Both the position numbers and the translations under genes were made by a program. Below are positions 7,761 through 38,305 of a stretch of DNA of 39,913 bases, in pieces. Positions within the stretch are counted from its first letter, which is position 1. Each line of letters opens with the position of its first letter. The notes beneath the pieces are model-generated. The model searched no databases and was not told the origin of the DNA. It worked only from the letters and a program-made list of their open reading frames with translations. The DNA is from an uncultured Lachnospiraceae bacterium (GTDB taxonomy: Bacteria; Bacillota; Clostridia; Lachnospirales; Lachnospiraceae): the NCBI GenBank assembly GCA_947650005.1, contig CANSTU010000028.1:1-39913 (forward strand), written 5' to 3'.

Positions 7761-7804
7761 TTCGCTCCTATCTGCGCGCCGTGCGCGCGTACAAATCAGG
7801 AAGG
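7761..7804 (-). repeat. Family A leader module providing the abfA ribosome site
   Basis: Read on the minus strand: CCTGATTTGTAC, then a GC-only stem (GCGCGC-acg-GCGCGC), then AGATAGGAGCGAAA and the abfA ATG. It is the gene-proximal member of a run of five modules reaching to 8091. Confidence 0.85.
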
Positions 7805-7830
7805 TTGAAAGCGTCTTTCTCCCAACCTCT

Positions 7831-8091
7831 GCTCCCGTCTGCCTGCTTTAAGCAGGCGCTCAAGCCAGGGCAGGGAAAGTGGCCTTCTTTCAGCCTCCGC
7901 TCCCGTCTGCATGCTTTTGCAGACACTCAAGCCAGGGCGAGGAAAGCGGCCTTCTTTCGGCTTTCTCCCGCCTGCCTGCTTTTGCAGACACTCAAGCCAG
8001 GGCGGAGAAAATGGCCTTCTTTCAACCTCCGCTCCCGCCTGCCTTAGCAGGCACTCAAATCAGGGCGGGGAAGTGGCCTTCTTTCAACTCT
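7831..8091 (-). repeat. Tandem array of four family A modules upstream of abfA
   Basis: Four units of about 61-68 bases (roughly 7831-7898, 7899-7965, 7966-8030, 8031-8091) each contain a CTCCCGYCTGC block, a short hairpin (for example GCCTGC with GCAGGC), CTCAAGCCAGGG and GGCCTTCTTTC. They are similar but not identical, and the stem bases differ between units while pairing is kept. The interval 7760-8387 has no convincing gene: it holds this array, a weak minus-strand -10 (8206-8211) for abfA and the plus-strand promoter at 8256-8285. Confidence 0.85.
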
Positions 8092-8205
8092 GCTCCATTC
8101 CGCCGCCACCACCGGTCTTACCATGCAGGGTCTCCCTCCGCATTTCTTCAAAACACCCTGAAATTAAAGCCTCCATACGACTCTCCCTGCTTACCAGATA
8201 TTCTT

Positions 8206-8211
8206 ATTATA
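8206..8211 (-). promoter_or_regulatory. Possible abfA -10 element
   Basis: A perfect TATAAT reads on the minus strand in an AT-rich stretch, but no good -35 lies 16-18 bases upstream. Regulator-assisted transcription by the divergent AraC-type protein would fit such a weak promoter (inference). The resulting leader would contain the whole module array. Confidence 0.35.
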
Positions 8212-8255
8212 AAAGAAAAGAAACCATTTTTACCACTTCATTTTTTCCGATACAT

Positions 8256-8285
8256 TTGACTTTTCTTCCGGTTCTATGATATGCT
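8256..8285 (+). promoter_or_regulatory. Promoter of the AraC-type regulator gene
   Basis: TTGACT at 8256-8261 and TATGCT at 8280-8285 are 18 bases apart, about 100 bases upstream of the start at 8388. Confidence 0.6.
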
Positions 8286-8387
8286 TTTTGAAACTGGGTA
8301 ACCCGCATAAACCGGATGTGGCGACAGTGGCCGGTCCCCTGCGTAAACATCCTTAAGACAGCGGACGTCAGCCATAGGAAATTCTCT

Positions 8388-9164
8388 ATGTATACATTAA
8401 ATTTCTGCGAATACAACCGTTCCAATCAAGATTATGATACCATCTACCGGCCGTCCGGAAGCGGGGACTATCTGTTTCTCCTTTTCAAGGCTCCCATGAA
8501 GGTCTATCTGGAAGACGGACTGACCGTCACCCGGGAAAATGCCTGCATTCTCTATACACCCGGCACACAGCAGCATTACCAGGCCGTCCGCAGATTTTAT
8601 AACAGCTATATTCACTTTTCTTCCGACGAAAATCCGGCTCTTAAATTTCGGCTTCCGCAGGATGTCGTTTTCTATCCCGATCATCCGTCTGAAATAGAAT
8701 ACTATATTTCCAGGCTGCAGCAGGAATACTTCTCTCTTCTTCCCTTCCGCGGAGAGTCCGTCCATTCCCTGATGACCTTGCTGTTCCTCTCCATTTCCCG
8801 CAGTCTTTCACAGCCTGCCGTAAGGGAAGAGGCTTCCGCCGATCTCTATCCGCTGTTTCAAGACCTGCGCCTCAGAATGCTTTCCGAATGTCAGGAGGAT
8901 TGGAATACGGAACGGCTCTGTCGATTTGTTAATTTGGAAAAAAGTCAGTTTTATGCCTGTTATCGTACCTTTTTTTCTTCCACCCCAAAGAACGACCTAC
9001 TCCGTGCACGCCTGGAAAAAGCCAAAAACCTGCTGAGCAACGAAGCCCTGCAGGTCAAGGAAGTCGCACAGCTGTGCGGTTTTCACAATCAGGCGCATTT
9101 TACCCGATATTTTAAAGCCTATTGCGGGTGTACACCGGGCGCTTATGCGCGAAGGAAGCTTTAA
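8388..9164 (+). CDS. AraC-family transcriptional regulator
   Basis: This one-component regulator is divergent from abfA and is its likely regulator. The N-terminal half is the AraC-type cupin sugar-binding and dimerisation domain (GSGDYLFLLFKAPMKVYLEDG, then ENACILYTPGTQQHYQ). The C-terminal part, from about residue 170, is a double helix-turn-helix; the second reads LQVKEVAQLCGFHNQAHFTRYFKAYCGCTPGAYARRKL, which is very typical. The frame is open from 8316, but ATG 8388 follows AGGAAA at a suitable distance and starts in line with family members. The effector is not known; arabinose or an arabino-oligosaccharide is inferred from position. Confidence 0.9.
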   Translation: MYTLNFCEYNRSNQDYDTIYRPSGSGDYLFLLFKAPMKVYLEDGLTVTRENACILYTPGTQQHYQAVRRFYNSYIHFSSDENPALKFRLPQDVVFYPDHPSEIEYYISRLQQEYFSLLPFRGESVHSLMTLLFLSISRSLSQPAVREEASADLYPLFQDLRLRMLSECQEDWNTERLCRFVNLEKSQFYACYRTFFSSTPKNDLLRARLEKAKNLLSNEALQVKEVAQLCGFHNQAHFTRYFKAYCGCTPGAYARRKL

Positions 9165-37271: not shown

Positions 37272-37334
37272 ATCTTTATCCTCCTTTAACTGTATATGGC
37301 ACAGTCCCGTCCTGCGGAAACGCTTCTCAAATAT

Positions 37335-37482
37335 TAATTCCCATTTGCCCGCTTTAGAAGGCACTCCATTCCATTCAAGCTCGGGAAATTGAAAATCTCA
37401 CGCCAACTCCCATATGCCGCTTTATCAGGCATTCCAATCAGGCTAAGGGAACCCGCGTCTCCTGTGAAATCGAAGATCCCAC
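37335..37482 (-). repeat. Two family A modules and hairpin in the gdhA leader
   Basis: Modules at about 37335-37386 (TCTAAAGCGGGCAAATGGGAA) and 37405-37443 (GATAAAGCGGCATATGGGAG), with a GTGGGATC/GATTTCAC hairpin at 37464-37482. The 37409-37483 stretch lines up with the GH120 leader over about 77 bases. Here the modules are not next to the gene start. The interval 37272-37727 holds only these, the gdhA promoter and an AT-rich stretch before the next stop. Confidence 0.8.
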
Positions 37483-37568
37483 ACGATTCCTCCGTCAAGA
37501 CCATGTCTTCATAAAAATACCCGGGCAGGTTTCCCATCCCGGATATCACCGGCCCCTGTCCGGTATTT

Positions 37569-37597
37569 ATTATATAATGTGACATGCATATGCGCAA
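37569..37597 (-). promoter_or_regulatory. Promoter of gdhA
   Basis: Minus-strand TTGCGC (37592-37597), 17 bases, TATAAT (37569-37574). The predicted start near 37562 leaves an unusually long leader for gdhA. Confidence 0.8.
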
Positions 37598-37727
37598 GTA
37601 CTTTATTACGTTAACTTGTCAAATCAGAAAATTTTGGTTACTTTTCCATCCCATCCAAGCTTTTGAAGGCAGAAATACGTGCCTATGTGCTTTTTCGAAC
37701 GAATCTAAACGGATTCAGAGCCTTTTA

Positions 37728-38159
37728 TTATAAATATTTTTTTAATTCTTCAATACTCCTTTCTTCAAAATCCATCAATTCTTTCGCCAATTCCGTGCTT
37801 CTGTTTCCGGCATTCTCATGGTGGTTCAAGGCCTTACACATCTCCGTAATTCCCCGGTTGCTACCCTGGATCATCAGCCCGGCTATATGGCTCGTACTGG
37901 TATTTAAAAGCGTATTGGCATACACGCTCCCTTTGAGCATCAAATCGGAAAACCCTGTGGGCCGATATTCCTCCTCATGCCCTTTCAGCAACTCTTGGCG
38001 AGCCTTGTTATGAAGTTCCGAGTATTTTAGTTCCTGTCTGCTCAGATGGAGGGCAAAGGGATCGTCCGCCACCTTTGGTACGATCGCATCAATCGCTTTC
38101 ATCCCCATCTGTGTATTTTTCTGAATTTCCCGCAGCACCGCGGCGTCATCACTTTTCAT
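37728..38159 (-). CDS. Small helical protein of unknown function
   Basis: I do not recognise a named family with confidence. The 143-residue product (from ATG 38159, MKSDDAAVLREIQKN) is soluble and almost entirely predicted helix, with amphipathic segments. A His-rich turn (KALNHHENAGNRSTELAKEL) and an acidic end (DFEERSIEELKKYL) are present. The pattern recalls four-helix ferritin-like or DUF2383-like bundles, but metal ligands are not convincing. The frame is open to 38171; the ATG there is part of the ribosome-site sequence AATGAGAGGAAAT, the end of a family A module. It has no close partner genes. Confidence 0.75.
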   Translation of the reverse strand: MKSDDAAVLREIQKNTQMGMKAIDAIVPKVADDPFALHLSRQELKYSELHNKARQELLKGHEEEYRPTGFSDLMLKGSVYANTLLNTSTSHIAGLMIQGSNRGITEMCKALNHHENAGNRSTELAKELMDFEERSIEELKKYL

Positions 38160-38161
38160 AT

Positions 38162-38305
38162 TTCCTCTCATTCCGCCGCGTAAGCGGCATTTTAATCAGC
38201 GGGAACTTTGGGACGCGCAGCGTCACAAAGTCCGAGATTGAAAATGTCAATTTTCAATCTTACTCCCGTCTGTCCGGTTCAACAAGCGCTCAAATCAAAG
38301 AGATT
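38162..38305 (-). repeat. Two family A modules and hairpin upstream of the small helical protein
   Basis: The proximal module (38162-38203) has stem GCCGC-ttac-GCGGC and GGAATGAGAGG next to the ATG. The distal one (38261-38305) has TTTGATTTGAGCGCTTG and CAGACGGGAG. Between them lies a perfect 10-bp AGATTGAAAA/TTTTCAATCT hairpin (38235-38260). Confidence 0.8.

Follow-up and report, generated by a model that had tools for sequence, protein, structure and literature searches.

Why do the leaders of unrelated genes in one bacterial genome end in the same kind of hairpin, directly followed by a ribosome-binding site? The question is raised by a stretch of 39,913 nucleotides (hereafter, the window) of contig CANSTU010000028.1, from an uncultured Lachnospiraceae bacterium, in which the initial annotation described about twenty copies of a hairpin-plus-ribosome-site module, here called family A. 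We investigated family A in the source genome (G000; 3.59 Mb in 138 contigs) and in related genomes. From G000, a sample of 839,913 bases was used, which comprises 41 pieces including the window and holds 697 called open reading frames (ORFs). Judged from sequence comparison, family A is probably a dispersed, directional, palindromic repeat whose copies come with a ribosome-binding site of their own and turn over where translation starts.

The usual view of dispersed repeats in bacteria is that they lie where harm is smallest, or that they contribute promoters or terminators. In this gut lineage, family A seems to have replaced the ribosome-binding site itself in a considerable fraction of genes, core genes among them, with 74 start-adjacent copies for the 697 called ORFs. 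It would amount to a translation part that is natural and movable. It would also exemplify repeat DNA rendered harmless by the Shine-Dalgarno (SD) sequence it carries, and it would let translation starts diverge quickly between closely related species.

Architecture and Abundance of the Repeat

The family A unit consists, from 5' to 3', of hairpin 1, CTC, CCTGATTTG, three nucleotides, hairpin 2 and AGATGGGAGC. Hairpin 1 has by eye the consensus RYTGAAA..TTTCARY (core TGAAA..TTTCA) with many variants, and some copies are without it; hairpin 2 is GCNNGC, a loop of about 4 nt, and GCNNGC. The core is about 40 nt long, and the length is 60–70 nt including hairpin 1. The flanks TGATTTG and AGATGGGAG are conserved. 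By inspection, no terminal inverted repeats were found: the unit ends, AAGRYTGAAA and AGATGGGAGC, are not mutually inverted, and the palindromes are internal. Copies chain head to tail, and in these arrays GGGAGC is followed after 3–4 nt by hairpin 1 of the next unit. One array (L049:14250-14470), before a GH43-type gene, has five tandem cores without hairpin 1 at a 38-nt period, and hairpin 2 is weakened in four of them.

We built a covariance model, R1, from 45 seeds and found 154 matches at E < 1e-3 in the sample. The module is thus real and extends well beyond the window, and these 154 copies in 840 kb amount to many short extragenic palindromes. Scaled to 3.59 Mb, the whole genome would hold about 650 copies by extrapolation. 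The words CCTGATTTG and AGATGGGAGC together gave 45 exact matches genome-wide, and the reversed-pattern control gave none. The window has 16 instances of AGATGGGAGC with at most one mismatch; shuffles had 3.57 on average (sd 1.77), and none of 100 shuffles reached 16. CCTGATTTG alone was not significant there (17 against 13.08, sd 3.66; reached by 19 of 100 shuffles).

R1 matches were present in 10 of 61 genomes, the source genome included, with at least 94 candidates each in G000 and G002; 257,893 bases of G002 held 12 matches. Seven other congeners had no R1 match in 127,244 bases syntenic to the window. The exact pattern GCAGATGGGAG-N5-ATG was found 71 times in G000, 37 in G002, 10 in G003, 7 each in G001, G011 and G012, and 5 in G036; it occurred 0–1 times in the other 15 of 22 genomes, and the reversed control was 0 in all. 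G036 belongs to another genus of Lachnospiraceae, and its five copies have ATG 4 nt downstream.

An exact-pattern scan of contigs matched at least 97 stretches; 80 loci among the matches listed were rescored, and at least 16 of them scored at least 39 bits. Among the matches listed, all loci at or above 39 bits were titled Lachnospiraceae, Eisenbergiella, Clostridium or Clostridiales, and the remaining loci (at most 30.4 bits) were taken as chance. ATG or GTG stood at 4–5 nt in 15 of 18 rows that scored at least 39 bits and came from records titled Lachnospiraceae, Clostridium or Clostridiales. The strict exact pattern had no match in IMG/VR viral contigs.

Position and Direction Relative to Genes

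To describe the position of the copies, we used 148 full copies of the best 150 in a fitted alignment, A2, from which two partial rows were dropped; a further four matches at E < 1e-3 ranked lower and stand outside it. The in-frame start of a called ORF lay within 30 nt downstream of 68 of the 148 copies; the opposite strand gave 3 of 148, and random intergenic positions gave 254 of 3000. The start of a 40-codon ORF lay within 15 nt of 81 copies, in 65 cases exactly 4 or 5 nt after GGGAGC. The same test gave 977 of 4000 at random positions, with a flat profile. A count free of the flanks agrees in direction: the first ATG came 5–6 nt after the last G in 34 of 60 CAGATGGGAG words, and the reversed word occurs twice in all. 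By eye, 21 of 30 exact-pattern loci inspected (of the 45 matches) had ATG 4–6 nt after GGGAGC.

The same position was found in seven other genomes, where ATG lay 3–5 nt downstream in 28 of 29 copies inspected by eye; these are better-scoring copies found by R1, a model that favours starts somewhat. For this count, 30 of 64 matches in eight genomes were inspected, and one (G030) was without the core.

Divided into classes, 74 of the 148 copies stand at a start and 34 precede another copy. The remaining 40 do neither; many of these 40 have, by eye, another family's module after them. The SD-like word was retained more often at starts (63 of 74) than elsewhere (48 of 74).

We identified 15 genes behind family A copies; ten of them lie outside the window and were selected from 64 ORFs of at least 150 codons. 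The five in the window encode an arabinofuranosidase-domain protein, a GH120-type protein, ScpA, ScpB and alanyl-tRNA synthetase (AlaRS). Elsewhere, we found genes for a formyltransferase (fmt type), a RecN/SMC-type ATPase, LepA, a UDP-glucose dehydrogenase type and an exonuclease type, and further genes for an RlmN type, a PASTA kinase, a sigma factor, an epimerase and GH43. The host genes are mutually unrelated, and core genes (alaS, scpA, scpB, lepA type) are included. The suggestion that a portable repeat has its 3' end as the ribosome site of many unrelated genes thus agrees with an enrichment before starts that extends to other genomes.

The position of the copies also bears on two other explanations. 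Hairpins in leaders may be intrinsic terminators or attenuators, and two weak terminator-like matches were found at hairpin 1 of one tandem array against 0.5 expected. However, hairpin 2 is followed by AGATGGGAG without a T run, and copies lie in the sense direction directly before start codons, where a terminator would silence the gene; we consider this explanation very improbable. Terminator and promoter scans gave nothing useful.

Alternatively, hairpin 1, which opens with TTG at ribosome-site spacing, may begin an upstream ORF with its stop at the TGA in CCTGATTTG. In many tandem units, TTG or another NTG indeed follows GGGAGC at about 4 nt. However, the distance from NTG to TGA falls in all three frames (22, 19 and 17 of 58), so that the frame is random. 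The leader-peptide explanation was rejected on this ground and deserves hardly any credence.

Proposed Replacement of Native Ribosome-Binding Sites

In seven congeners, alaS has an ordinary SD sequence, GGAGGA..AC, before GTG (in six of them TTTTGGAGGA). G000 has two family A modules at this place and G002 has other hairpin modules; AAAC before ATG is kept in both. At purD, a short spacer with GGAGG in G007, G008 and G010 corresponds to a module in G011, and ATGGAGGAA is still present in G011 just 5' of hairpin 1. This G011 leader reads like the leader in a record of Candidatus Eisenbergiella merdavium (L067), and the genus is therefore probably Eisenbergiella.

An SD-like word just 5' of hairpin 1 was found in 21 of 40 units without a preceding family A module, compared with 8 of 40 and 10 of 40 in two control windows. 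Together with the tandem spacing, this suggests that new units are inserted between the old SD sequence and the start codon.

We propose the following course. Two hairpins would form in the mRNA, the ribosome would bind GGGAG just 3' of hairpin 2, and the gene would be translated from the repeat's own site. A copy landing between the old SD sequence and the start codon would be tolerated because it brings a new site. Further copies could be added in the same gap, and chains and a turnover of the leader would result.

Ten family A starts of G000 were tried in G002; four were without an orthologue in the sequence compared, and six were comparable. Two of the six keep A-like modules (L046 15084, L048 6701) and the scpA module has diverged. 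Orthologous starts in relatives were too diverged outside the genes to judge target site duplication. A search for orthologues of 19 copies of G002 and S29_Bin8 in the G000 sample found other repeats only.

Several observations weigh against the proposed course. The other three of the six comparable starts (window 18949, scpB and alaS) have other leaders in G002, and the G002 stretch syntenic to the window (L220) is without an R1 match at E < 1e-3. In G000, another SD-like word (GAGAGG) separates an A-like module from the conserved ATG of purD. A called start is lacking next to 74 of the 148 copies, half of the total, and counts made with R1 lean towards starts because the model holds eight flanking positions; the flank-free counts are lower. 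The use of the repeat as a ribosome site is read from its sequence, and insertion and present mobility are putative, because the leaders compared are those of different species. Finally, no Y1 transposase (PF01797) was found in G000 or G002, the two richest genomes, whose drafts are 97.7% and 96% complete, and no other driver was found; PF01797 had matches in 7 of the 15 genomes searched. A Y1 transposase as the driver, in the manner of REP sequences and RAYT proteins, was rejected for this absence.

Hairpin Conservation and the Question of a Switch

The initial annotation described the stems as covarying and took this to point to selection on RNA structure. In the fitted alignment, hairpin 2 was paired in 88.0% of cells and a helix between CTCCC and GGGAG in 75.5%. 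For the covariation analysis, the 148 copies were reduced to one per array (108) and then at 90% identity to 106 rows. We found that two central pairs of hairpin 2 rank first and second of 1248 column pairs (corrected G 105.8 and 55.2; next 23.9). The first was paired in 95 of 99 rows (49.5 by permutation) and the second in 98 of 102 (81.4 by permutation). The other ten of the twelve pairs tested were not clearly above permutation (smallest p 0.16). Pairing and two strongly covarying pairs were thus confirmed, and the claim does not extend to the rest: clear covariation is limited to two of the seven hairpin-2 pairs, and selection on RNA structure is supported in part. In A2, changes on both sides of a pair were found in 134 cells against 68.2 in shuffles; this count and the covariation score were both above all 500 shuffles. 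The number of pairs with both-sided changes (10 against 9.9) and of pair types (26 against 24.8) was not above shuffles.

On a tree of 76 rows made from the flanks only, which is short and weak, at least 29 stem-type changes were required, compared with a mean of 40.3 for shuffled labels; 30 of the 106 rows, with other pairs, were left unlabelled. Stem types follow subfamilies in part, yet they have changed many times. The correction of imperfect palindromes during replication could be an alternative source of the covariation.

The hairpin-2 pairs were kept in 217 of 237 cases in tandem-internal copies, 455 of 508 at starts and 225 of 273 in the remaining copies. Because hairpin 2 is kept in tandem-internal copies as it is at starts, the constraint need not concern translation. 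In our reading, the hairpins belong to the repeat as such, and the ribosome site is retained where it is in use.

This bears on the explanation that family A is a class of cis-regulatory RNA, in which the paired hairpins are bound by a protein or a ligand, with control of the ribosome site across a large regulon. The two conserved hairpins, the conserved TGATTTG and AGATGGGAG flanks, the exact placement at the ribosome site in several genomes and the top rank of two hairpin-2 pairs are all in its favour. However, the 15 host genes directly behind family A copies share no common pathway, hairpin 2 is equally kept in tandem-internal copies, and half of the comparable G002 genes have other leaders.

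The comparison with Rfam gave no class either: the window at the gathering threshold gave a tRNA only, and 501 bases that include an array gave six matches when E was allowed up to 10, all far below gathering scores.

Translation control had been suggested, and the CTCCC:GGGAG helix is a candidate lock of the site. Its five pairs rank 76–912 of 1248, that is, without covariation, and its predicted probability exceeded 0.5 in 2 of 74 leaders, or in 4 of the 74 when the coding part was left out. Part of the lock bases are also used by hairpin 1. By folding, the mean unpaired probability of GGGAG was 0.47 in the 74 leaders and 0.47 in 150 other genes with an SD sequence (p = 0.98). Locking by CTCCC was therefore rejected, though it appears in the minimum-energy fold of some single copies. 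The predictions give no sign of a general on-off translational switch, and a regulatory RNA class seems to us unlikely. We do not think that family A is a specific translational switch; any regulation would follow incidentally from the structure of the leader.

An extended hairpin, ATTTG:CAGAT, was also rejected: the two words are near-invariant in the G000 seeds, but a pair of copies in G003 (L170) has AATAA with CAGAT kept.

Sister Families and the Mode of Spread

The commonest 12-mers of the sample were GCAGATGGGAGC and words from similar modules. We described three further families, B, C and E, and in all of them a hairpin lies, by eye, shortly before an SD-like 3' end. Family B (GGCGGAATGAGAGGAA) has the hairpin GCCGC..GCGGC followed by GGAATGAGAGGAA, and is mostly found directly before ATG; GAATGAGAGGAA has 15 exact copies in 840 kb, with sites including L043, L044, L155 and L167. 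Family C (TGCGATATGCAGGGGTAT) has a hairpin 1 of GTTTGAAAC..TTTCAAAC, then TATCGCAAGC..GCTTGCGATATGCAGGGGTAT, before ATG or another module; TGCGATATGCAG has 15 exact copies, at window 32950-33034, L033, L037, L038, L046, L150, L160 and other sites. Family E (GGTTGAAAAATGGC..TGAATTTATGCC..GGAGG) was found at L032, L040, L158 and L162. In the form GGTTGAAAAATGGC..GCCATTTTTCAACC-GTGAATTTATGCC..GGCATGGAGG, family E is by eye a diverged cousin of family A, and it is tandem in places.

Modules of several families that share this plan are chained to one another. The place of family A at one gene start of G011 is taken in six relatives (G004–G009) by a GCCGCC..GGCGGC module with an SD sequence, in tandem in some of them. 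Exact copies of one GCCGCC..GGCGGC form are rare (0–2 per genome).

These leaders bear on how the repeats spread, for which non-autonomous transposition and recombination between leaders are the candidate means. The same repeats may be spread among leaders by homologous recombination (gene conversion), an explanation that differs from the proposed course in the spread only. The chaining of same-plan families, the exchange of families at one start between G011 and G004–G009, and the absence of a REP-type transposase from the two richest genomes would agree with it. However, units of 38–67 bp would be short substrates. We regard such recombination as possible, and somewhat doubtful.

Returning to the repeats with their own ribosome site, a stronger version may be considered, in which mobile elements are aimed at translation initiation sites. 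The elements would enter in the sense direction between the SD sequence and the start codon, the new SD sequence would be both the ribosome site of the gene and the next landing site, and in this genus several families would compete for the same starts and replace one another there, core genes included. This is considered because random insertion followed by selection should leave many harmless copies farther upstream, and in the few-copy genomes 28 of 29 copies, which are the best-scoring ones of a model that somewhat favours starts, lie within 3–5 nt of ATG. We hold such targeting only tentatively.

In L299 (G009) and L288 (G008), a tandem leader of GCCGCC-NTTC-GGCGGC, AGGAAGGAGAGG and further hairpins was seen before ATG. 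It lies upstream of a homologue of the gene after the L240 element and represents another family with this plan, in relatives without family A matches.

Comparison with Known Repeats

REP sequences with RAYT transposases are short hairpins in hundreds of copies, with clustered arrays and stem variants. Family A resembles them in all of these respects. It differs in the absence of PF01797 from its two richest genomes and in its fixed orientation and position before start codons.

BOX repeats of streptococci had been offered as an analogy. BOX, RUP and SPRITE of Streptococcus pneumoniae are overrepresented between convergent genes and are read as mobile parasitic entities in tolerant regions (PMC3049150). 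By the properties published there, family A is like them in being a small dispersed repeat with strong secondary structure in one lineage that marks no functional gene class; it is unlike them in lying near genes in the sense direction, abutting start codons and supplying the SD sequence (PMC3049150).

Miniature inverted-repeat transposable elements (MITEs), such as Correia elements, are small non-autonomous repeats upstream of genes that are able to take over expression signals, and in this they are similar to family A (PMC10969869). Correia elements contribute promoters, and the main text of that MITE review contains neither "ribosome" nor "start codon" (PMC10969869). Unlike MITEs, the family A unit ends without terminal inverted repeats.

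Candidate structured RNAs from microbiomes are likewise short and structured and lie no more than 25 bp from genes of gut bacteria, and the examples shown are tied to particular genes (ribosomal proteins, toxN) (PMC8040213). Compared with those examples, family A stands before unrelated genes and has hundreds of copies (PMC8040213). In the open-access PMC literature, we recognised no description of family A or of any repeat supplying ribosome sites, which does not imply absence from print.

Copies in the Window

The initial annotation listed 21 copies, of which 16 match R1 at E < 1e-3. The copy at 21533 is a seed row that overlaps its neighbour, 37335 is marginal (E = 0.81), 33022 is partial, and 35645 and 38162 belong by eye to family B. 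It also named seven genes whose SD sequence is the 3' end of a module, and this holds for five family A starts (7759, 18952, 21486, 22478 and 30088) and two family B starts (~35642 and ~38159). All copies are on the minus strand except one.

The arabinofuranosidase-domain gene at 6260-7759 (PF06964) has a module at 7756..7808 (56.6 bits, E 1.8e-14) with AGGAGC 4 nt before its ATG (7759). Four tandem copies lie upstream, at 7823..7877 (37.3 bits), 7891..7944 (25.6 bits), 7956..8009 (30.7 bits) and 8023..8072 (31.4 bits).

A copy at 15162..15215 (52.7 bits; class "other") stands before an ATG without a long ORF. The sole plus-strand match of the window below E 1e-3, at 15304..15356 (55.2 bits), faces its inverted partner at 15362..15411 (27.3 bits), and the two form a long inverted pair at 15304-15411.

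The GH120-type gene starting at 18952 (PF21258) would use the copy at 18949..19002 (55.1 bits) as its ribosome site, and a further copy lies upstream at 19030..19082 (44.9 bits). For scpB (ATG 21486; PF04079), the putative site is the copy at 21484..21537 (TTGGAGC; 47.1 bits). The flanks of a second copy at 21524..21576 overlap the first; it is a seed row of alignment A1, and no separate R1 match is listed. The predicted site of scpA (ATG 22478; PF02616) is in the copy at 22475..22526 (ATGGGAAT; 43.5 bits). That of alaS (ATG 30088; PF01411), whose orthologues were compared above, is at 30085..30138 (62 bits, E 3.6e-16), with a tandem copy upstream at 30151..30204 (58.5 bits).

At 33025..33034, a partial copy with the 3' word AGATGGGAGC only, found as a word match, is followed by a family C module. 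A family B module (GCCGCC..GGCGGC-AGAATGGGAGGGAAA) lies at 35643..35675 before the ATG at about 35642 of a GFO/IDH/MocA-type gene (PF01408); it was recognised by sequence and has no R1 match. A degenerate family A copy lies at 37329..37387 (13.6 bits), and a family A module at 37398..37450 (40.8 bits). Another family B module, at 38162..38205, ends in GGCGGAATGAGAGGAA before the ATG at about 38159 and was identified by GAATGAGAGGAA with its context; a family A copy at 38254..38307 (50.4 bits) is chained to it. The tRNA gene of the window lies on the minus strand at 39850-39913, and its 5' end is cut off by the window end.

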